Assembly: GCA_030690945.1 (NCBI GenBank)
Contig: JAUYFM010000038.1
Coordinates: forward strand, 1 to 64,000
Reading direction: 5' to 3'
Origin: Smithellaceae bacterium
GTDB taxonomy: Bacteria > Desulfobacterota > Syntrophia > Syntrophales > Smithellaceae
Length of the DNA: 64,000 bases
The translations under genes were made by a program, and so were the position numbers. The notes beneath the pieces are model-generated. The model had not been told where the DNA came from. It worked only from the letters and a program-made list of their open reading frames with translations, and made no database searches. Below, one piece after another: positions 13,499 through 40,123 of this stretch; the stretch's first letter is position 1; each line of letters starts with the position of its first letter.

Positions 13499-13846
13499 AT
13501 GAAAATGTTTTGCCCAAAATGCGGAGCTGAATACTGGGAAGGCTTTTACAAGTGCGCCGATTGCGGTACTGATTTAGTTGCAGGCCAACCGCCGGAGGCT
13601 GAAGACGAGGTGCGTTATGTGGAAATGGTTGAGGTTTTCTCGACATATAATCAGGGCGACATCGCGTTTATCAAGTCCGTGCTCGATGGCGAAGACATCC
13701 ATTATTATTTTCAGGGAGAAAGTACGCTTATGATGGTTGCTGCCGGATCTTATGCCCGCCTGTTGGTTCAGGACGATCAGGCCGGACGCGTCCGGGACAT
13801 TCTTGAAGAGATGGGGTTTATTCAGCCCCTCTGTGCCCTTTACTGA
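13499..13846 (+). CDS. Zinc-ribbon plus DUF2007 small protein
   Basis: 115 residues. The N-terminus is a four-cysteine zinc ribbon (FCPKCG...KCADCG, residues 4-24). The rest matches the DUF2007 'putative signal transducing' fold: VEVFSTYNQGDIAFIKSVL, the ligand-like AGSYARLLVQ and DILEEMG. The biochemical function of DUF2007 is unknown. It follows the repeat after the amidase and precedes the acyl-CoA ligase operon by about 100 bp. Confidence 0.75.
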   Translation: MKMFCPKCGAEYWEGFYKCADCGTDLVAGQPPEAEDEVRYVEMVEVFSTYNQGDIAFIKSVLDGEDIHYYFQGESTLMMVAAGSYARLLVQDDQAGRVRDILEEMGFIQPLCALY

Positions 13847-13941: not shown

Positions 13942-15654
13942 ATGATGTCTAATCAAAAGCCGTGGTTGAAGTTTTATAAAAATGTACCGGAAACAATAGA
14001 CTATCCCCGTGTAACCATGTACGAGGCTCTGATGCAAACCGTCGAAAAATATCCGGACCGCATCGCTTATGATTTTTTCGATTACACCTCAACGTATCGC
14101 CAGTTTGCGCGGGACATCGACATCTGCGCAAATGCGCTGGCCTCGCTTGGCCTGAAGAAGGGCGACCGGATCACGATTTCCATGCCGACATCCCCGCAGG
14201 GCCTCATCTGCTTTTACGCCGCCAACAAGCTTGGCGTGGTGGCCAGCATGATCCACCCGCTTTCCACACCCGCCGAAATCGCTTATTACCTGAATGTCAG
14301 TAAAAGCCGGGTCGCCTTTACGTTAGACCTGTTTCATGACAGTTTCAAAAACCTTCCGGAGAAAACTTCATTGGAGTTGCTTATCTTGACGGAAATCTTT
14401 GACCAGATGACCCAGGGGCAGCCCATGGCGGAAAAGCCCGTGCCAACGGCGGGACCAGCAGTCCGGTGGTGGAAGGATCTGATGACTGCCTCGCACCCGC
14501 AGGCGCCGACAACGGACATGCATACTGATGAAATGGCCGTCATCCTGTATAGCGGCGGGACAACGGGCTTTCCCAAAGGCATCATGCTCTCCAACTATAA
14601 TTTTATCAGTGAGGGGCTGATGGTCGCCAACTGGGGCGGCGGAGAACTGATGGCGGAGGATTCATCCATTCTGGCGATCCTGCCTATTTTCCACGGCTTC
14701 GGCCTGGGTGTTTGCTGCAACGCCGCTTTTATGGGCGGAAGCAAGAGCATTCTCGTCCCCCAGTTTACGCCGGAGATTGTGGCCGATCTCATCAGGAAAA
14801 AACGCCCCAATATCGTCGTCGGGGTGCCGACACTTTACGACGCCCTCTCCAAAAATGAAGTGTTCAAGACCACGGATCTGAGCTGTCTGAAAAATACCTC
14901 CTCCGGAGCCGACTCGCTGCCGCGGACCGTCAAGGAAAGGTTTGAAGAAGTCGTCAGGAAGCAGGGGGGAGATGTCCAACTGGTGGAAGGATACGGTCTG
15001 ACAGAGGCCGTCACCGCGATTATGTCCACGCCGGTTGACGGCTATCGGGAAGGCAGCGTAGGTATTCCGTTTCCGGATATGCTGGCAAAAGTGGTCGGCA
15101 TCGGCACAATCGATGAGGTTCCTGTCGGCGCAGAGGGGGAGCTTTGCATCAGCGGTCCGGCTGTCATGCTGGGCTATCTGGAGCAGCCGGAAGAGAACGC
15201 CCGGGTTCTCCAGACACACGCTGACGGCAGGATCTGGCTTCACACAGGGGACATTTTCACCATGGACGCCGACGGCTATTTCTATTTCAAGCTGCGTCTC
15301 AAGCGCATGATCAAGTCTTCAGGCATGAATGTCTATCCCGTTCAGGTGGAAGCCGTTCTGGACAAGCACCCGGATGTGGCGGCAGTCTGCGTGATCGGTG
15401 TGCCGGATGAGGCTCAGGTGGAGAAGGTCAAGGCCTTCGTCGTCCTGAAGGACGCAACCAAGGCATCTCCCGAAATGGAAAAGACGCTGATCAACTTTTG
15501 CCGCGACCAGTTGATCAAGTGGTCCTGCCCCCGGGAGGTGGAGTTCACGGACAAGCTGCCCCAAACGAAAGTGGGCAAGATCGCCTACACCGAACTGGAA
15601 AAGCAGGAAATTGAAAAACTCCGCAAAGCGGGAAAATATACGGGAGGAAAATAA
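13942..15654 (+). CDS. Acyl-CoA ligase (AMP-forming) of the dehydratase operon
   Basis: 570 residues of the acyl-adenylate-forming family. Visible are the P-loop YSGGTTGFPKG, YGLTEAV, WLHTGD followed by LKRMIKSSG, and the C-terminal KVGKIAY lysine region. It should activate a carboxylic acid to its CoA thioester. The following two genes encode dehydratase/reductase subunits, and its stop overlaps the next start by one base (TAATG), so its product is probably their substrate: an aromatic, alicyclic or 2-hydroxy acid. AAAGGAGAG precedes the paired ATGs at 13942 and 13945; the earlier ATG at 13903 has no ribosome site. Confidence 0.88.
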   Translation: MMSNQKPWLKFYKNVPETIDYPRVTMYEALMQTVEKYPDRIAYDFFDYTSTYRQFARDIDICANALASLGLKKGDRITISMPTSPQGLICFYAANKLGVVASMIHPLSTPAEIAYYLNVSKSRVAFTLDLFHDSFKNLPEKTSLELLILTEIFDQMTQGQPMAEKPVPTAGPAVRWWKDLMTASHPQAPTTDMHTDEMAVILYSGGTTGFPKGIMLSNYNFISEGLMVANWGGGELMAEDSSILAILPIFHGFGLGVCCNAAFMGGSKSILVPQFTPEIVADLIRKKRPNIVVGVPTLYDALSKNEVFKTTDLSCLKNTSSGADSLPRTVKERFEEVVRKQGGDVQLVEGYGLTEAVTAIMSTPVDGYREGSVGIPFPDMLAKVVGIGTIDEVPVGAEGELCISGPAVMLGYLEQPEENARVLQTHADGRIWLHTGDIFTMDADGYFYFKLRLKRMIKSSGMNVYPVQVEAVLDKHPDVAAVCVIGVPDEAQVEKVKAFVVLKDATKASPEMEKTLINFCRDQLIKWSCPREVEFTDKLPQTKVGKIAYTELEKQEIEKLRKAGKYTGGK

Positions 15655-16775
15655 TGAACCATCTGGAAGAATACCGCCGGGTCGTTTCGGACCCATCCGA
15701 CTATGCCCGGCAACTGCAAAAAACATCCGGTAAAAAAATAATCGGATACACCTGCTCCTACACGCCGGAGGAAGTCATCATGGCCGCTGGTGCTCATCCC
15801 CTGAGGCTATTCGGCACGAAACAAAACATCAGTCTGGCCGACTCCCACCTGCAATCCTACTGTTGCTCTATAGTCCGCGGGATTCTGGAGGAAGGTCTGT
15901 CCGGGCGTGTTGATTACCTCGATGGCATGGTTTTCCCGCATACCTGCGACTCGATGCAACGGCTGTCCGACATCTGGCGGATGAATATCCCTTTCGGTTT
16001 CCATCTGGATATCACCCTGCCCGTCAAGCTCGATACGGTAAGCGCCAAAGACTATATGATAGATGTCTTGAAAAAATTCCGGGATGACCTGGGTCGGAAA
16101 CTGAATGTTGAGATTTCTGATGAGGCTTTGCAAAAGGCGATTACGACTACCAACGCCATCCGTCAATCCATCCGGGCGATCTATGACATCCGTAATCTGT
16201 ATCCCCAGCTCATGCCGGGAGATGATCTATATAACATTGTTCGTGCGTCGATGATCATGGACCGGGACCGGCTGGCAGTGATGCTTGCCGAAACGGCCGC
16301 GGAATTGAAAGAACGCGCCGCCGGGGCGAAACCTGCCGACATGAAGCGTATTATGCTGGCCGGTGGCATGTGCAATCAACCCGATGTGTATGCGATGATT
16401 GAAGATGCAGGCGGGGGCATTGTCTGGGACGATTTCTGCACGGGGGCCCGCTATTTTACCGGTTTGATTGACACAGGGCGCGATCCGCTTGCGGGTATTG
16501 GTGAACGCCTTCTGAACCGGGTTGTCTGCCCCGCAAAGCATGCCGACCTTGATGGACGAGCCCGACATATCATCGGTCTGGTCAAAGAAAAGAATGCCCG
16601 GGGCGTGATTTTCCTATTGTTCAAGTTCTGTGATCCCCATGCCTTCGACTACCCTTACCTTAAAGAGCGCCTCGATGAAGCCGGCATTCCACTGATGATC
16701 GCGGAAGTAGACGATTCCCTGCCCGCCGGCGGGCAGTTGAGGACGCGCTTTGAAGCCTTTTTAGAAATGCTGTGA
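15654..16775 (+). CDS. 2-Hydroxyacyl-CoA dehydratase / benzoyl-CoA reductase-type subunit (HgdB/BcrC-like)
   Basis: 373 residues of the HgdB/FldC/BcrC family, the smaller substrate-binding, iron-sulfur subunit. Family cysteines are seen in GYTCSYTPEE (about residue 34), SYCCSIVRG (about 69) and PHTCDSMQRL (about 99), followed by LAGGMCNQPDV in the second lobe. These enzymes use an ATP-driven activator to inject one electron and carry out radical dehydration or ring reduction. It is translationally coupled to the ligase (TAATG) and followed 11 bp later by the larger subunit. Family membership is clear; whether the substrate is a 2-hydroxyacyl-CoA or an aromatic CoA is not decided by sequence alone. 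Confidence 0.87.
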   Translation: MNHLEEYRRVVSDPSDYARQLQKTSGKKIIGYTCSYTPEEVIMAAGAHPLRLFGTKQNISLADSHLQSYCCSIVRGILEEGLSGRVDYLDGMVFPHTCDSMQRLSDIWRMNIPFGFHLDITLPVKLDTVSAKDYMIDVLKKFRDDLGRKLNVEISDEALQKAITTTNAIRQSIRAIYDIRNLYPQLMPGDDLYNIVRASMIMDRDRLAVMLAETAAELKERAAGAKPADMKRIMLAGGMCNQPDVYAMIEDAGGGIVWDDFCTGARYFTGLIDTGRDPLAGIGERLLNRVVCPAKHADLDGRARHIIGLVKEKNARGVIFLLFKFCDPHAFDYPYLKERLDEAGIPLMIAEVDDSLPAGGQLRTRFEAFLEML

Positions 16776-16786
16776 AAGGAAATAAC

Positions 16787-18028
16787 ATGACAGACAATAC
16801 GCAAAATAACGAAATCAAAACGATCAACTACGAAAAGCAAATGCGGGATATCATGACCACTTATTATATTGACGCCAAAACGGCCGGTCAGAACAACAAA
16901 AAGGTGGCATGGATAACCAGCGGCGGCCCGGTCGAGCCTCTGATTGCCATGGATATTATTCCCGTTTATCCGGAAAACCACGGGGCAATGATCGGCGCCA
17001 GCAAGATGGGTGTCGATTTATGCAAAAAGGCGGAAGAGATGGGCTATTCGAGCGATCTTTGCTCCTACGCCCGAGGCGACATTTCCTGTGCAACCGTTAA
17101 TGGTGGCCCCATCGGCGGTCTGCCGGAACCGGACATGCTGGTGTGCTGCAACAATATCTGCGGGACGGTTCTCAAATGGTATGAAGTGCAGGCCCGATAC
17201 TTCAAGGTGCCCCTGTTTATTTTTGACACCCCCATCGTCCACACGGAATTCACCCCGGAGATGAAAACGTATGTCCAACGGCAGATGGAAGAGTATATCC
17301 TCTTTCTGGAGGGCGTCTGTGGCCGCAAGATGGATTGGGACCGCATGAAGGAAGTCGGCAAGCTCTCCTTTGAAGGGCAACAGCTCTGGCAGGAAGTGCT
17401 GGATACAGCCATCAGCAGGCCATCGCCCCTGACCGCCTTCGACGCCTTTTTCTATCTCGCCCTGATCGTTACACTCCGGGGAACCCAGCAGGCCGTTGAC
17501 TACTATCGTGGGCTCCGCGATGAAATGCGCAGACGCGCCAGTGAGGGGAAAGGGGCCATTCCCCGGGAACGGTATCGTCTGCTGTGGGATAACCTGCCGA
17601 TCTGGTACCGGCTGAAATGGCTGTCCAAGGAATTTGCCCAGCATGACGCCTGTCTGGTGGCCGACACCTATACCTCGGCCTGGTGCGGCTCTCTGAAATA
17701 CATCAACGAAAATGATTTTATCGGATCCGCCGCGGAATCCTATACCCGCATTTATTTAAATATCGGCGTGGACCAGATGGCGGAGATCGTCCTTTCGATG
17801 ATCGATAAATACGGGGCTGACGGGATCGTCATGCACTCCAACCGCAGCTGCAAGCCTTATTCCTTCGGTCAGTATGACATCCAGAAAATCGTTCAGCGTG
17901 AACGGGGCATTCCCTCATTGATGCTTGAAGCCGATATGTGCGACGAACGGAATTTTTCCGAGGCTCAGATTCAAACGCGGATCGAAGCCTTCATGGAAAT
18001 GATCAGGGCAAGTAAGGGAGCATCCTGA
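16787..18028 (+). CDS. 2-Hydroxyacyl-CoA dehydratase / benzoyl-CoA reductase-type subunit (HgdA/BcrB-like)
   Basis: 413 residues, the larger partner subunit. Conserved features include WITSGGPVEPLIAMDIIPVY, SDLCSYARGD, LVCCNNICGT and, near the C-terminus, MHSNRSCKPYSFGQYD. Together with the preceding gene it forms the heterodimer that binds the CoA ester and iron-sulfur clusters. The ATG at 16787 is preceded by AAAGGA; a GTG at 16772 overlapping the previous stop is a weaker alternative. The expected third gene, the ATP-dependent activator, begins one base after this stop but is truncated after 25 codons. Confidence 0.87.
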   Translation: MTDNTQNNEIKTINYEKQMRDIMTTYYIDAKTAGQNNKKVAWITSGGPVEPLIAMDIIPVYPENHGAMIGASKMGVDLCKKAEEMGYSSDLCSYARGDISCATVNGGPIGGLPEPDMLVCCNNICGTVLKWYEVQARYFKVPLFIFDTPIVHTEFTPEMKTYVQRQMEEYILFLEGVCGRKMDWDRMKEVGKLSFEGQQLWQEVLDTAISRPSPLTAFDAFFYLALIVTLRGTQQAVDYYRGLRDEMRRRASEGKGAIPRERYRLLWDNLPIWYRLKWLSKEFAQHDACLVADTYTSAWCGSLKYINENDFIGSAAESYTRIYLNIGVDQMAEIVLSMIDKYGADGIVMHSNRSCKPYSFGQYDIQKIVQRERGIPSLMLEADMCDERNFSEAQIQTRIEAFMEMIRASKGAS

Positions 18029-18029
18029 A

Positions 18030-18107
18030 ATGTACACGGTCGGCATTGATATCGGTTTCGTAACAGCCAATGTCTTATTCAACCCGAAAATGGAGGAGTC
18101 TCAATAA
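18030..18107 (+). pseudogene. N-terminal fragment of the dehydratase activator ATPase (BadF/BcrA/HgdC type)
   Basis: 25 codons starting MYTVGIDIGFVTANVLFNP. This is the first phosphate-binding strand of the ASKHA-fold activator family (normally near YTVGIDIGS-ATAK). It is followed after MEESQ by TAA, which overlaps the MFS start as TAATG. A C-terminal part of the same family lies after the MFS gene at 19398-19542. About 125 middle residues, including the GGQDSK-type ATP site, are missing. Confidence 0.85.
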
Positions 18108-19396
18108 TGAAAAAGCAGGAAAGGCAGGATACTCAGGAGTTTCAGGTTTCAAAGGGATACGCGTACTATGTATTTCTTCTTCTTTTTCTTCTCTACCTTT
18201 TCAATTACGTTGATCGCATGGTCATTGCTTCACTTTTCCCTTATCTAAAAGTGGAATGGAACCTCACGGATACCGACTGTGGCTGGTTTGCCTCCATCGT
18301 GACGCTCATGATGACAGTATTCGTGTTTCCCGTATCGTTCCTGATTGACCGGTGGAGCCGTAAAAAGGCCATCGCGGCCATGGCCGTGCTCTGGAGTGTT
18401 GCCACCGCAGCTTGCGCGCTGACCAGAAACTTTACTCAGCTTTTCACTATGCGGGCTGTTGTAGGCGCCGGAGAGGCAGCCTATACCTCCGGAGGCCATG
18501 CGATGATTGCTGCATATTTTCCCGAGGAAAAACGGGCCACAATGAACGGCCTTTTCACCGCAGCCATACCCATGGGCACAGCGATCGGGGTCGTCCTTGG
18601 TGGCATAATCGCTGTAAACTGGGGCTGGAGATATGCTTTCGGTCTACTGGCCATCCCGGGCTTGATTGTTGGTATTCTCTTTTTCTGGGTTAAAGATTAC
18701 AAAACCATCCAGATCACGAAAAAAGACGGTGCAGGGGAAACCAACATGGGATGGAAAGATATCGCACTGGAGTTTCTGCGCACACCGACGGTACTTTTTA
18801 CTTATGTGGGATACATCGGGAACACCTTTGTTACCACGGCGCTCATGACCTGGCTGCCCTCGTATTTTAACAGGGTTGACGGAATCCCCATGGACCAGGC
18901 AGGTGTGAAAACAGCCGTCGTGTTCCTGCTGGCAATCTTCGGCGCTCCCCTCGGCGGGATGCTGACCGATAAGCTACGGAAAAAATGGTTCCACGCGCGG
19001 ATGAGCGTGCCGGCGGTCACTTCCCTTTTGACAGGGCTATTTCTCTTTATCGGATTCTTCTTCCTTGAAGGAAAGGCACAGTACATTTTTCTGATACTCT
19101 TCGGCTTTACGGCTCCCATGTTCGCCGCCGGTGGTTCAGCCGTCACGCAGGATGTGGTGCATCCCGGGCTCCGGGCGATCTCCTACAGCCTGGCGCAGTT
19201 TTTCATGATGCTCTTAGGCTACAGCCTGAGCCCGATTTTCGTGGGTGCCATATCCGATAGGTATGATCTGCTCACGGCGTTCAAATTCCTGCCGCTCTTT
19301 TCCCTCCTCGGCGCCATCGGCTTTTTCATCGGCTCCTTTTATTATGTGAGGGATTACAAAAAGGTACAAAAGGTAAAGCTCGAAACAGCGGATTAA
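18107..19396 (+). CDS. Major facilitator superfamily transporter
   Basis: 429 residues with about twelve transmembrane helices. The loop motif LIDRWSRKKA (about residue 80) matches MFS motif A, with a second-half counterpart MLTDKLRKKW, and ARGAGEAAY-like sequence appears as VVGAGEAAYTSGG in helix 4. It resembles anion/organic acid symporters, so uptake or efflux of the acid handled by the ligase is a fair guess. GGAGGAG precedes the ATG, and it is coupled to the truncated activator ORF. It sits exactly between two remnants of that activator gene. Confidence 0.85.
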   Translation: MKKQERQDTQEFQVSKGYAYYVFLLLFLLYLFNYVDRMVIASLFPYLKVEWNLTDTDCGWFASIVTLMMTVFVFPVSFLIDRWSRKKAIAAMAVLWSVATAACALTRNFTQLFTMRAVVGAGEAAYTSGGHAMIAAYFPEEKRATMNGLFTAAIPMGTAIGVVLGGIIAVNWGWRYAFGLLAIPGLIVGILFFWVKDYKTIQITKKDGAGETNMGWKDIALEFLRTPTVLFTYVGYIGNTFVTTALMTWLPSYFNRVDGIPMDQAGVKTAVVFLLAIFGAPLGGMLTDKLRKKWFHARMSVPAVTSLLTGLFLFIGFFFLEGKAQYIFLILFGFTAPMFAAGGSAVTQDVVHPGLRAISYSLAQFFMMLLGYSLSPIFVGAISDRYDLLTAFKFLPLFSLLGAIGFFIGSFYYVRDYKKVQKVKLETAD

Positions 19397-19397
19397 T

Positions 19398-19542
19398 ATT
19401 ACCATATTCCCCGGTGCAGATACGGCCGTAACGGGTCGCTTTCTGGAAGTTATGGCACGGGCGCTGGAGGTTGATCTGGATAACTTCGGCGCCCTGTCTC
19501 TGAAGGCGGACAGTCCTGCAAAAATAAGCAGTCTCTGCGCGG
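19398..19542 (+). pseudogene. Internal/C-terminal fragment of the dehydratase activator ATPase
   Basis: In one frame this reads TAVTGRFLEVMARALEV, then DLDNFGALSLKADSPAKI and SSLCAV. This corresponds to the activator segment that normally follows the [4Fe-4S] cysteine loop (CAAGTGRFLE...) and runs to the second cysteine motif SS.CTVF. Similarity stops at about 19540, just before a family D hairpin at 19563. The cluster cysteine in the first loop is replaced (TAVTG). With 18030-18107 this is the residue of one gene. Confidence 0.85.
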
Positions 19543-19562
19543 TTGCCCGGCACTCCCCACAA

Positions 19563-19639
19563 AGAAGCAGGGAATGGTCTTGCCACCCACAGGCGTGGTC
19601 GCGACCACCCATGCGGGTGGCAGGCCGTTCCCTACTTCT
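19563..19639. repeat. Long inverted repeat, family D, copy 1
   Basis: The arms start AGAAGCAGGGAATGG and end near CCGTTCCCTACTTCT; about 25 bp per arm pair with few mismatches. The self-complementary core GTGGTCGCGACCAC is at 19595-19608. A truncated second copy is at 46134-46200. The remaining bases to 19678 hold no gene. Confidence 0.8.
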
Positions 19640-19678
19640 TAACCTTAAAACTTAAATCTTAAGACTTAAAACTATTTT

Positions 19679-29640: not shown

Positions 29641-29729
29641 GCTCAAGGCTTTCCAGGCGGATCGTTTTAAAAATGAGCAAGGGTAAAAAAATCACGGACA
29701 CGGATTCGAAAGATAAAAAGGGAATGAAT

Positions 29730-32711
29730 ATGAAAAAGATGAGTTTTCTGCGCATGGTTTTAAGTCTGCTTCTGGTTTGCCTGTTATCAGGCCTTGCTCC
29801 GGATGCCGCTTTTTCACAAGACAGGATGAGCGCGCGAAGGGGAAGGACAATCCCCGCTGAAACGCCTTCTGTTTCCGCCCCTAAAACCGACATGGATACA
29901 TCATCGCCGGTAAAGACAGACCCGACTACAACCCGTGGTGAGGCTGCCGCTGAAAAAGCGCCATTCGGGGTGAAGGTGCAGAATTTGGAAGGCACCGCTT
30001 ACTGGCGAATGCTGGGAAGGCATACCGGCAGGAAAGACGGTGTTCTTGTTGCCGACGTGGTAAACGGAAGTCCGGCGGAACAGATGGATATTAAGAAGAA
30101 TGACGTCATCCTCTCCTTCAACTATAAAGATGTAAAAAATCCGGATGAATTCCAGAACGCTGTTTCCGCATTGAGCCAGGGGGACAAGATCGTTCTCTCG
30201 ATATACCGTCTCTCTCCCACCCTGTTGACCCTAACGGGAACGATGGGACAATCCGCTGTGGCTGCCGGCAAGGAACAAAAAACCAAAGTTGCATCGGCGG
30301 ATATGAATGCAACCGCGGCGATATTTGCGCCTACAGGTCATCATGGAATAACAGCCGTGGGTTTATCGTCCGACGGCAAACAAATCATCTCGGGCGGCAA
30401 CATCAACAATTCTCTCAAACTCTGGGATGCCGCAACAGGAAGGCAAAGCCAGGCATTAGCCGGAGACACTGATGTCGTTTATGCGGTGGCCTTTTCTCCT
30501 GACGTCAGATATGGTGTATCCGGGAGCGCGAATAACACCATCAAGCTCTGGGATGGAACAACGGGAAAAGAGATTAAGGCTTTCGCAGGACAAACCAAAG
30601 ATGATTTGGTTCTTTCGGTAGCCTTTTCTTCCGACAGTCGCCATATCCTTTCCGGCGGCAGTGACAACACCCTCAAGCTCTGGGATATTGCAACAGGACG
30701 GGAAATCAAGACATTTTCCGGGCATGCGGGATGGGTCACTTCCGTTGCCTTTTCACCCGACGGCAGATACGCTCTCTCGGGCAGTTTGGACAACACCCTT
30801 AAGCTCTGGGATATCGCAACCGGCAGGGACATCAGGACCTTCGTGGGACAACATGGGGTGGACAGCAAAAGCCGGGCTTTTGCGAAGGATGGCACACCCG
30901 TTCCACCACTCATCCAGTTAGAAGCCGATAAAATGGCGTGGGGTATGAGCAGCTTTGCCGGCCGGGTCAGTTCTGTCGCTTTTTCACCAGACGGCAGGCA
31001 TGCCGTCTCGGGAAGCTGGGGCAAAATCATCACGCTCTGGGACATTGCGACCGGCCGGGAAATAAGGTCTTTTACAGGGCATAAAGAAAGGATTAACGCC
31101 GTCGCCTTTTCACCTGACGGCAATCAAATCTTATCCGCGGCCCGCGATAATACCCTTAAACTCTGGAATGTGGCGACGGGCAGGGAGATCAGGACATTTA
31201 CCGGGCATATCGGAGAAATCAATTCCACCACCTTTTCCAGGGATGCAAAGCGATTGATTTCCGGAGGCTCAGATGGCACAATCAGGTTCTGGGACAGCAA
31301 TACCGGCGCGGAAATCGTCAAGTTTGTAAGCTTGAAAGACGGCGAATGGATCGTCATTACAGCCGAGGGATACTACAACTCCTCCGGCCGGGGGCATGAA
31401 TATCTCAACATCCGCCAGGGCGCCAAGGTCTATGGCATCGACCAGTTCTATGATGTCTTTTATCGTCCTGATATTGTCGCCGCAAAACTTCGAGGCGATG
31501 ATATCCGTGATCTTGTCACACTGACTCTTGATGAAGCGCTCAAAAATCCACCGCCGACGGTTGAATTTTCCTCTGTGCCGTCACAGACGGACCAGCCAAA
31601 GGTCAAGGTCTGTTATCAGGCAAAAAGCACGGGCGGCGGCATCGGCGAGGTGCGATTATTCCACAATGGCAAGCTCGTCCAGTCCGACGGCTATTACAGA
31701 GAGGTTGCCAAAACATCAACCGGGACAACCCAACTTGCTTCGTTAAACAGCCGGTCAATCTATGCCGACATGAGAAGCATCAACATCAAGGCCAAAGCGG
31801 ACTCTGCGTTTATCTCCAGTAAATCCAAGGGAGATCTCTTTGAAGACTGCAAAGAAATAGACGCCATTGCCGGTGAGAACGAGATCAGCGTCTCCGCTTT
31901 TAACGGCGGCAACACCGTCCAGAGCTACATGAAAACTGTTAAATTCAACTCTGGGGTCAAGCCGCAAGATCCCCATCTTTATATCCTCTCCATCGGGATA
32001 GACCAATACAAAGACAGCAGCGTCAATCTCAAATATGCCGTCAAGGATGCAAAAGACCTGGAGGAAAAAATCAAAACACAGTCTGCCACGCTTTATCAGC
32101 CCCGGAATATTCATTATTCACTGGTGACGGACCAAGATGCAAACAAGACAAATATTATCAATAAAATCAATGAGCTTGCCAACACCATCAAGCCCCCGGA
32201 CAGCTTTATCCTTTTCGTGGCCGGTCACGGCATTCTGTTGCAGAACCAGTATTATATGCTGACCCATGACTTCAACGGGCAGGTGAGCGACGCCGGCATG
32301 ATCAGCTCCAATGAAATTGTCGAGATGTCCAAAAAAATTAAATCTCTGAGTCAGTTATTCATCTTCGACACCTGCCATGCAGGCGGCGTGGACACGATCA
32401 TCAGCGGTCTTTACGATGCCAGAATGTCTGTCCTGGCGAAGAAAATGGGGCTTCATATTTATGCCTCGGCCAATGACAAACAGGCGGCGATGGACGGCTA
32501 CAAAGGCAACGGTCTGTTTACCTATACTCTGCTGGATGGTTTGAACAACAATAAAGAAGCTGACAAATATAAAAACGGGAAGATCAGCGTCGTGGGTTTA
32601 GGAGAGTATGCCAGGAAGATGACTACGACCATCTCTAAACAGATCGGCCATGAACAAACGCCGCTTATCATCAATTTCGGGAAAGACAGCCCGCTATATA
32701 AATTGCAGTGA
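29730..32711 (+). CDS. Exported PDZ / seven-blade WD40 / caspase-like (peptidase C14) protein
   Basis: About 993 residues. A signal peptide (MSFLRMVLSLLLVCLLSG region) is followed by a PDZ-like domain (about 78-172: GVLVADVVNGSPAEQMDIKK, GDKIVLSIYR). Seven WD40 repeats (about 200-535, each ending LKLWD or similar) should make one beta-propeller; repeats four and five are separated by a roughly 40-residue insert. A linker containing WIVITAEGYYNSSG leads to a caspase-like domain from about 747 (LYILSIGIDQYKD), with the catalytic dyad His833 (FVAGHGI) and Cys882 (FDTCHAGG). This is a bacterial orthocaspase that should act outside the cytoplasm. AAAAGGGA supports the start at 29730 (an ATG two codons earlier is equally possible). 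It is the first gene of the island after dxs. Confidence 0.87.
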   Translation: MKKMSFLRMVLSLLLVCLLSGLAPDAAFSQDRMSARRGRTIPAETPSVSAPKTDMDTSSPVKTDPTTTRGEAAAEKAPFGVKVQNLEGTAYWRMLGRHTGRKDGVLVADVVNGSPAEQMDIKKNDVILSFNYKDVKNPDEFQNAVSALSQGDKIVLSIYRLSPTLLTLTGTMGQSAVAAGKEQKTKVASADMNATAAIFAPTGHHGITAVGLSSDGKQIISGGNINNSLKLWDAATGRQSQALAGDTDVVYAVAFSPDVRYGVSGSANNTIKLWDGTTGKEIKAFAGQTKDDLVLSVAFSSDSRHILSGGSDNTLKLWDIATGREIKTFSGHAGWVTSVAFSPDGRYALSGSLDNTLKLWDIATGRDIRTFVGQHGVDSKSRAFAKDGTPVPPLIQLEADKMAWGMSSFAGRVSSVAFSPDGRHAVSGSWGKIITLWDIATGREIRSFTGHKERINAVAFSPDGNQILSAARDNTLKLWNVATGREIRTFTGHIGEINSTTFSRDAKRLISGGSDGTIRFWDSNTGAEIVKFVSLKDGEWIVITAEGYYNSSGRGHEYLNIRQGAKVYGIDQFYDVFYRPDIVAAKLRGDDIRDLVTLTLDEALKNPPPTVEFSSVPSQTDQPKVKVCYQAKSTGGGIGEVRLFHNGKLVQSDGYYREVAKTSTGTTQLASLNSRSIYADMRSINIKAKADSAFISSKSKGDLFEDCKEIDAIAGENEISVSAFNGGNTVQSYMKTVKFNSGVKPQDPHLYILSIGIDQYKDSSVNLKYAVKDAKDLEEKIKTQSATLYQPRNIHYSLVTDQDANKTNIINKINELANTIKPPDSFILFVAGHGILLQNQYYMLTHDFNGQVSDAGMISSNEIVEMSKKIKSLSQLFIFDTCHAGGVDTIISGLYDARMSVLAKKMGLHIYASANDKQAAMDGYKGNGLFTYTLLDGLNNNKEADKYKNGKISVVGLGEYARKMTTTISKQIGHEQTPLIINFGKDSPLYKLQ

Positions 32712-35258: not shown

Positions 35259-35930
35259 ATGCCCAGAATATCAAGAATAGTTGCCGTAGATTATCCGCAT
35301 CATCTTACACAGCGCGGTGTTCGATCTATGGAAATCTTTCATAGCGACCATGACAGGAGTCAGTATTTACAGTTCATCAAAGAAGAATCCCAGCGATGTG
35401 AAATAGAAATTCTTGCCTGGTGCCTGATGACCAATCACGTTCATTTTATCGCCGTGCCGCACACAGAAACATCGCTTGCCCGGGGATTTGGTGAAGCCCA
35501 TAAACGGTACACCCGTATGAAGAATTTCAGTGATAATGTTCGGGGGTATTTATTTCAAGGGCGATTTGGTTCCTGTGTGCTTGACGAACGTCATTTGCTG
35601 GCTGCCGTGCGGTATGTCGAGAATAATCCTGTCGTTGCGGGTATGGTCAAGAATGCATGGCAGTATAAATGGTCTAGTGCGCCATATCACGTTGGTGATA
35701 TTGAGGGAGATGTTCTGGTTAACAGCAGCAATCTATATGGCCTGGTTAAAGATTGGCGGACCTATCTGGATGAGCAGATTGAGGGAATGGATGACGTCCA
35801 TAGCGTGAGAAGGGCGACAAAAACCGGACGACCGGCAGGTGATCACGATTTTGTAAAAAAGATTGAAAAACTGACAGGGCGTTTGTTACGGCGGAAAAAG
35901 CCCGGACCCAAGAAAAAACAAGAAAGCTGA
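35259..35930 (+). mobile_element. REP-associated tyrosine transposase (RAYT, Y1/TnpA-like), 223 aa
   Basis: MPRISRIVAVDYPHHLTQRG, the HUH-type metal pair in MTNHVHFIAVP (HxH) and the catalytic tyrosine region VRYVENNPVVAGMV identify a Y1-family HUH transposase of the REP-associated class. The C-terminus is basic (RRKKPGPKKKQ). It is intact and flanked by 19-bp near-perfect inverted repeats whose third copy lies at 34391. RAYTs are thought to move or maintain REP palindromes and usually stay at one chromosomal site. Its stop codon overlaps the right repeat by one base. Confidence 0.87.
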
Positions 35931-38392: not shown

Positions 38393-40123
38393 ATGGAAAT
38401 CAAACTGGCCAAAACAGCCGGGTTTTGCATGGGCGTGCGCCGGGCGGTGGATGCGGTTCTGGAAGTTGTCCAACATGAAATGGGCAGGCGAATCTATACC
38501 TACGGCCCCCTGATCCACAATCCGCAAACCATTGAACTTCTTAAAAATAGAGGCATTACGGCCATCAGTCATATAGAGGATATTCCGGACAAGCATCAGG
38601 CTGTTCTGATTATCCGGGCGCACGGCATTGCGCCTGACGAAAGAAAAAAAATCAAGGAAAGCGGCGTTAAAATCATTGACGCGACCTGTCCGAAAGTCAG
38701 CTACGTGCAGGCCATCATCAAAAAGCACACGGCGATGGACTACACGGTCATCATCGCCGGAGACCGCGAACACCCGGAAGTGGACGGTCTGTGGGGCTAT
38801 ACCGAGGGCCAGGGCCTTATCGTCTCGACGCTTTCGGATGCGGATAAATTACCCGCTATGGAAAAAGTCTGTATTGTGGCCCAAACCACTCAGGACACCG
38901 ATCATTACGCCCATATTGTTCAAAAAATCCAAGAAAAAAACCCGCAGGCTGTCGTTTTCAATACGATCTGTTCCTCCACGGAAAAAAGGCAGGAGGAAAT
39001 TATCGCTCTGGCTACGGAAATGGACGCTTTATTCGTCGTCGGCGGTAAAAACAGCGCTAACACCCGCCGTCTGGCTGATCTGGCCCAAAAACAAAACACG
39101 CCGACTTTCCATATTGAAACCGCTGAAGAAATAAAAAATATAGACCTGACGCCTTACAAAAGCATCGGCGTTTCCGCCGGCGCCTCCACACCGAACTGGA
39201 TTATCGACCAGGTTATGGATAATCTTGCGGAAAGAAACAACAGTCCACATCGAAAGGTTGGCTTTCTCCTCAAGCTTTGGCTATGGATGGTGAAAACGGA
39301 TTTCTATTCCGCCTTAGGCGCGGGTTGTCTGGCGCTTACGGGCATGTTGTTGCAAAAAATCCCTGTCCATATTTCGTCAATTGCCATTGCTTCATTATTT
39401 GTTTATGCCATGCACGTTCTCAATCGGCTGACGGGCCGCAAGCAATCGGGGCTGATCGGCTCATTTCGTGAAAAATCCTATTTAAGGTTCAAAAGATACT
39501 ATCATCTGGCGGCTATTGTCTCTTTGGTGATGGCTTTGGTCTTATCGCTGGCGAACAGCATGCTTTCTTTTTTCTTTTTGTTTTTCATTTCTCTTGCCGG
39601 CGGTTTGTATAATATGAAAATTCTGCCTGGAGGCCAGCGTTTTCAGAGATTAAAAGACATCCCCGGATCAAAAAACATTTTTATCGCAGCAGCATGGGGA
39701 ATGGTGACGGCGGTTTTACCGGCCTTGAACAACAGCCAACACGCCAGCGCCGGAATGGCGGTCGCTTTTATTTTCACGTTTGCCTTAGTCTTTATTCGAT
39801 CAGCCATGTCGGATATTATGGATATCCAAAGCGACAAACTATTGGGACGGGAAACTATCCCCGTAATGATCGGCAAGAAAAAGACGCAAGTCCTGTTGAA
39901 AATTATGGTTCTGATGTTATTGGTTATTTTGTTAATTTCCACTCCCGCCGGATGGAGTTCAACTTTAAGTATTTTCCTGGTTTTGTGTCTATTATATATA
40001 TGGATTTGTTTCCGGCTTTGTGATAGAAGGGCGGGTCTTTCGGGGGGAGTCATTGAAGGACTCCTGGAAACAAGCTATATTATTGCTGGTTTTGCTGTTT
40101 TCTGCTGGTTCGTTCTAAGTTGA
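38393..40123 (+). CDS. ispH: IspH (HMBPP reductase) fused to a UbiA-like membrane prenyltransferase domain
   Basis: 576 residues. Residues 1-283 are a complete IspH: cluster cysteines C12 (GFCMGVRRA), C99 (DATCPKVS) and C193 (NTICSSTE), substrate histidines H42 (LIHNPQ) and H127 (DREHPEV), and QTTQDT. This 4Fe-4S enzyme makes IPP and DMAPP. Residues 295-576 form about eight transmembrane helices resembling the UbiA superfamily: the second Asp-rich motif SDIMDIQSDKLLGRETIPV (D474, D477, D481) is present, but the first motif is degraded to NRLTGRK (N344). The C-terminal part therefore looks like a UbiA relative of uncertain activity, anchored to an enzyme that supplies its substrate. No frame break separates the halves. 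Confidence 0.9.
   Translation: MEIKLAKTAGFCMGVRRAVDAVLEVVQHEMGRRIYTYGPLIHNPQTIELLKNRGITAISHIEDIPDKHQAVLIIRAHGIAPDERKKIKESGVKIIDATCPKVSYVQAIIKKHTAMDYTVIIAGDREHPEVDGLWGYTEGQGLIVSTLSDADKLPAMEKVCIVAQTTQDTDHYAHIVQKIQEKNPQAVVFNTICSSTEKRQEEIIALATEMDALFVVGGKNSANTRRLADLAQKQNTPTFHIETAEEIKNIDLTPYKSIGVSAGASTPNWIIDQVMDNLAERNNSPHRKVGFLLKLWLWMVKTDFYSALGAGCLALTGMLLQKIPVHISSIAIASLFVYAMHVLNRLTGRKQSGLIGSFREKSYLRFKRYYHLAAIVSLVMALVLSLANSMLSFFFLFFISLAGGLYNMKILPGGQRFQRLKDIPGSKNIFIAAAWGMVTAVLPALNNSQHASAGMAVAFIFTFALVFIRSAMSDIMDIQSDKLLGRETIPVMIGKKKTQVLLKIMVLMLLVILLISTPAGWSSTLSIFLVLCLLYIWICFRLCDRRAGLSGGVIEGLLETSYIIAGFAVFCWFVLS

Follow-up and report, generated by a model that had tools for sequence, protein, structure and literature searches.

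The closest known relatives of the enzyme treated here belong to two systems, namely the 2-hydroxyisocaproyl-CoA dehydratase HadBC with its activator HadI (PDB 3o3m and 4eht) and the bzd-type benzoyl-CoA reductase with its subunit BzdN (PDB 8s02). The stretch of 64,000 nucleotides that we analysed (hereafter, the window; contig C26 of the Smithellaceae genome G000, 3.15 Mb in 69 contigs) carries an operon for an acyl-CoA ligase and the subunits B and A of such an enzyme. Subunit A was closest to HadB (3.2e-73; best solved relative, 3o3m_A) and has counterparts of the HadB cysteines C84, C117 and C346 (numbering counted on the alignment). The nearest relative of subunit B was BzdN (2e-57), and its cysteines align with those of its PDB relatives BzdN and HadC. 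We take the aligned cysteines of A, B and the activator to be cluster ligands. The equivalog cut-offs were missed for HadB and HadC (292 of 750 and 201 of 700 bits) and for BzdN (subunit B, 202 of 453.8 bits); since no NCBIfam equivalog cut-off was reached, the likeness to HadB and BzdN does not fix the substrate of the enzyme.

Unlike the HadBC system, the operon in the window has no HadI-type local activator, and unlike the bzd type, its relatives have one activator gene behind the two catalytic genes. Two pieces are present instead on the two sides of a major facilitator superfamily (MFS) transporter gene: the 3' piece matches the BadF/BadG/BcrA/BcrD activator family (PF01869, TIGR00241), and the 5' piece resembles the beginning of the gene in those relatives that have activator sequence of this family there. 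With 13 + 40 codons left, most of the domain is gone. We consider it probable that the ligase–B–A operon lost its own activator recently, after the arrival of the MFS gene, and that the dehydratase would now be activated from elsewhere.

Methods

The loci of close relatives were defined by a subunit A at least 88% identical to that of the window, which gave nine loci, each from a different genome (G015 has another A tail, which was excluded). G036 was dropped from this set because only about 450 bases follow A. In the survey of contigs, 80 loci were found in total, 12 with less than 1 kb downstream were dropped, and 68 were kept. Downstream neighbours (up to two ORFs) were surveyed by eye at 21 loci (the 16 distant loci with no activator, the close or middle loci L044 to L047, and L028). 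Substitutions in the activator remnants were counted against the intact activator of G034, over 40 codons for the window and 100 codons for G046 (eight codons of the MFS end were left out). The model of neutral evolution since the split assumes the smallest background dS (carB, 0.135), with an omega of 0.06 otherwise. The omega of the ligase is comparable only with genomes such as G034; the G046 contig lacks the ligase.

Results

The operon and the activator remnants

An amidase gene and an ORF of 115 amino acids (13499-13846) precede the operon; the family search gave no firm family for this ORF, and DUF2007 was not confirmed. The operon lies on the plus strand and consists of the AMP-dependent acyl-CoA ligase as gene 1 (13942..15654; PF00501, E = 7.7e-81; omega 0.064 against G034), the BzdN/HadC-like dehydratase/reductase subunit B (15654..16775; PF06050, E = 1.2e-87) and the HadB-like dehydratase subunit A (16790..18028; PF06050, E = 3.9e-80; the mechanical ORF starts at 16772, and the part searched starts at 16790). 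All three genes are full length and have no stops, and both subunits of the PF06050 pair are present with cysteines aligned to those of the solved relatives. Downstream, carB (confirmed by the family search) is convergent on the opposite strand. Between 13300 and 19700, promoter-like sites (6, versus 5.4 in shuffles) and terminator-like sites (9, versus 7.0) were about as frequent as in the shuffled sequences. The public-record relatives of subunit A include assemblies labelled Smithella and Syntrophaceae.

An ORF of 25 codons (18030-18107) begins one base past the stop of A, and the start of the intact MFS gene (429 amino acids, 18107..19396, plus strand; PF07690, E = 5.7e-61) overlaps it by one base (TAATG). 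Both the intact gene between the pieces and the overlap had been reported in the initial annotation, in which the whole ORF was regarded as an activator start. The ORF itself stands, and its first 13 codons (18030..18068, plus strand) are the activator stub: these 39 bases match the activator start of G033 at 33 positions, no other 39-mer of the window, whichever the strand, exceeds 23 of 39, and the stub lies directly after the A stop, where relatives begin their activator. The 5' piece alone matched no Pfam family. From about 18069, the DNA matches the upstream region of the MFS genes of G006 and G005, so that the activator accounts for just 13 of the 25 codons; the tail of the ORF (18069..18106, plus strand) is non-activator MFS upstream DNA with a GGAGG.

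The second piece, which had been given about 48 codons, was correctly assigned to the PF01869 family and has about 40 (19423..19543, plus strand; codons ~127-166). It is identical to the intact activator of G034 at 112 of 121 bases (95% of the amino acids), and its PF01869 score of 23.9 bits (E = 3.4e-5; 20.1 bits in the genome-wide search) is under the curated cut-off of 31.5. An origin of the two pieces from unrelated proteins was checked, and both were found to derive from the same PF01869 activator family, as had been claimed. We take the motifs NDKCAAGTG and SSLC to hold the two cluster cysteines of the activator. The 3' remnant starts just past the first of these and retains the second, so the window has the SSLC cysteine only, and of the complete PF01869 domain of ~250 residues it keeps codons 1-13 and 127-166 only. 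The 3' remnant cannot be a working activator, and the operon is without an intact one, as originally described. No source was found for the 26 bases between the MFS stop and the remnant (19397..19422, plus strand): a search of the own genome (20 bases, up to three mismatches) gave only two sites elsewhere, each with three mismatches, and the best other match in the loci compared was 19 of 26. An assembly artefact is unlikely to explain the arrangement, because the left junction and the MFS gene recur in G046, which was assembled separately. A programmed rearrangement was also considered, and the sequence offers nothing in support of it.

Origin of the MFS gene

Relatives of the MFS protein at 90% identity or more were found in only four of the 51 family genomes. 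The identity is 97% in G046 (same locus; omega 0.09, window versus G046), 95% in G006 and 93% in G005 (94.4% and 92.5% by tblastn). G006 and G005 are of another genus, and there the gene sits among unrelated genes; the DNA similarity upstream of it begins at 18069 (G006) and 18061 (G005). The best subunits A of these two genomes are merely 75 and 76% identical to that of the window. An identity of 92-95% in another genus and in unrelated contexts, with A at only 75-76%, indicates that the MFS gene was acquired horizontally and brought some 38 bases of its upstream DNA along.

The same locus in relatives

The downstream carB is common to five genomes (G000, G046, G034, G040 and G033). In G046, the left junction is as in the window, and the stub and MFS gene are followed by activator codons 157-257 with one TAG; the contig ends inside B. 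We set aside a reading of this TAG as an amino acid; G034 has TCG there, which makes a nonsense change the simpler explanation. A relative that has this MFS arrangement, but with a full activator elsewhere and no split gene, had been named as an argument against a split activator; G046 has the arrangement and also bears activator remnants. In G034, A is followed by a degenerate activator start, a gene of the sodium bile acid symporter (BASS) family and an intact activator, whose closest match is HadI (1.3e-63). The protein search does not report this stub, which was seen as a DNA match: it agrees with the stub of the window at 24 of 31 bases, and none of 1000 shuffles and none of 348 other locus stretches was as good; with the intact activator of G034 itself, it agrees at 21 of 31 bases. 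No arrangement of A, stub, MFS and intact activator was present among the 51 family genomes.

At the other close loci, the activator was absent and a RhuM/Fic gene found instead (G040), cut after about 24 codons just 5' of a palindromic GGGAACGGTC stretch (G033), absent within 4 kb with BASS following A (G020 and G042), or broken over two frames (G015); for the last three genomes, carB was outside the stretch compared. In G004, subunit A carries a stop. An intact activator within 4 kb was thus found at one of the eight remaining close loci (G034 only). The 68 contig loci comprise three in the close clade (no intact activator), three at 79-81% identity of A (one intact) and 62 below 79%; within 4 kb, 44 of these 62 carry an intact activator, two carry a partial one and 16 have none. 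The expectation that an activator should be the next gene agrees with most relatives (the 44) and does not extend to the 16. Fisher's test of one of eight versus 44 of 62 gave p = 0.002, on loci that are related and sets that overlap (G046, G040 and G020 are L043, L044 and L046).

The idea that a transporter regularly replaces the activator elsewhere was rejected: the 21 loci surveyed by eye have diverse neighbours with no regular replacement (a ligase-like protein is among the downstream neighbours at L047, L071 and L104), so that the idea of a transporter slot rests on the clade of the window. Decay of the operon genes was also observed. In G036 (L045, G036:C168), the same operon is decaying, with the ligase in two frames and an internal gap in B. 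In a related ligase–B–A operon at L128 (G016:C65, 4516-5279, minus strand), the activator is broken by a frame shift near codon 88-90, and its second frame carries a TAG.

Constraint on the remnants and order of events

Against G034, the remnant of the window had two nonsynonymous and eight synonymous differences (neutrality rejected, p = 2.8e-4), and that of G046 had eight and 19 (p = 9.9e-8). Gene A, compared along this path, showed no difference from either remnant (p = 1.0 and 0.46, respectively). Under the neutral-since-split model, 26.3 nonsynonymous differences are expected and 10 were seen (combined P = 2.6e-4). The few nonsynonymous changes in the remnants mean that a constrained activator probably stood to the right of the MFS gene after the insertion, and the left junction and MFS gene common to the window and G046 place the insertion before their split, unless they were moved by recombination.

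One loss step in the window is clear from the alignment, where the missing sequence corresponds to a deletion between 8-bp repeats: TGCGCGGT occurs once in the window (19536..19543, plus strand) and twice in G046, 379 bp apart, and the stretch between the two G046 copies is missing from the window. The activator to the right of the MFS gene was probably lost later, and separately, in the lineages of the window and G046. The ancestor of both would have had the order A – stub – MFS – activator, comparable to the A – stub – BASS – intact activator of G034; the window lineage would then have deleted both activator ends, one via the 8-bp repeat, and the G046 lineage would have lost its activator separately.

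The timing of the activator loss is model-dependent, as the remnants are short and much of the path to G034 predates the insertion. The main caveat is local recombination, which is likely here and could mimic constraint or carry the junction between lineages; dS between the window and G046 was 0.135 for carB, 0.206 for MFS and 0.353 for A.

The enzyme core and activation in trans

Between the window and G046, omega was 0.094 for subunit A (412 codons, p = 2.9e-30) and 0.194 for subunit B (179 codons, all of B that is on the G046 contig; p = 1.5e-6). Since A and B are constrained between two genomes that both have no local activator, the enzyme core is, as judged from these substitution patterns, still under purifying selection. 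The suggestion in the initial annotation that the enzyme has lost its function is not supported, in view of these omega values and of the aligned cysteines, which are present. Its alternative, reliance on another activator, is plausible: outside the locus, the genome has eight PF01869 stretches above the cut-off, spread over six open frames, of which four have 260-282 amino acids and two (1410 and 1450 amino acids) hold two stretches each. The best of them, on contig C20, is 62% identical to the activator of G034, followed by those on C35 (47%) and C8 (46% and 41%). Next to the C20 activator are paralogues of A (70%) and B (51%).

The dehydratase of the window would likely be activated in trans by another activator of the genome, for which that on C20 is the most likely candidate. 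According to a review (PMC8473912), one ATP hydrolysed serves at least 1000 turnovers, so a shared activator would be sufficient in principle on the figure given there. A nearly full-length activator with at least 60% identity to that of G034 is present in 40 of the 51 family genomes, and co-occurrence therefore cannot discriminate activation in trans. Searches of open-licence papers brought up none on the loss of an activator in Smithella.

Palindromes and other genes of the window

A REP-like palindrome, GGGAACGGTCGCGACCGTTCCC with its variants, occurs at 33 places in the G000 genome (reversed control, 0). A longer, imperfect palindrome related to it lies between the operon end and the convergent carB (19562..19640, plus strand) and is not among the 33 places of the core pattern. 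GGGAAYGGTC occurs three times in the window (0.29 expected). The activator truncation in G033 stops just before a stretch related to the REP-like palindrome. A Y1_Tnp (PF01797) gene, one of four in the genome, is located at 35259-35930; it may serve the palindromes as a RAYT-type partner. Elsewhere in the window, the gene at 29673-32711, directly following a DXP synthase gene, encodes a protein of 1012 amino acids that combines WD40 repeats with a caspase-type (Peptidase_C14) domain at the C-terminus, and LytB (IspH) and UbiA prenyltransferase domains are found in one frame of 576 amino acids (38393-40123).

Discussion

The reading of the initial annotation, that the activator was split by the MFS gene, is correct in that the remnants flank the transporter and is probably too simple as an account of the loss. 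If the MFS gene had landed in the activator at codon 13 and killed it at once, both pieces would have been eroding since; they do come from a single gene and are correctly ordered, with the left junction inside the activator ORF. The pieces to the right of the MFS gene in the window and G046, however, evolved as a constrained gene, and G034 combines a stub with an intact activator, so we regard immediate inactivation as unlikely.

Another possibility is that the dehydratase is also becoming a pseudogene and the operon is dying, with the MFS gene the sole one still useful. The broken ligase and gapped B of G036, the stop in A of G004 and the somewhat raised omega of B against G046 fit with this, but the ligase, B and A of the window are full length and stop-free with the aligned cysteines kept in both subunits, and A and B are strongly constrained between two activator-less genomes; a dying operon is thus quite improbable at present. 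The operon is decaying in G036, and that of the window may follow. Equally doubtful is the proposal, made from the overlap, that the 25-codon ORF was retained as a translational leader which couples the translation of A to that of MFS via TAATG. The overlap itself is there, and the stop and start also overlap in G046 (TGATG), versus TGGTG in the homologues of G005 and G006. It rests on two closely related genomes only, though; the 13 activator codons have no measurable constraint (two nonsynonymous and one synonymous difference against G046), and the MFS gene brought its own GGAGG region, so coupling is not needed.

We therefore keep to the recent loss of the activator after the MFS gene had been taken in as the probable account, with the dehydratase presumably activated from elsewhere. 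As a wider interpretation, which we put forward tentatively and do not hold to be the more probable outcome, a set of Smithella relatives might be switching at this operon from an operon-encoded activator to a shared one acting in trans, with the slot behind A exchanging transporters (MFS, BASS) while selection still acts on the ligase, B and A.

Conclusions

The case is one of ordinary operon remodelling, well resolved, and gives an example of a transporter whose arrival probably preceded the loss of a partner gene. Should the enzyme still be working, the locus would be a natural experiment on the specificity of ATP-driven activators, since its own activator type (that of G034) and the C20 activator are 62% identical. 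It would also caution annotators that a neighbourhood with no activator is no proof of a dead dehydratase operon; of the 62 distant loci, 16 lack one within 4 kb.
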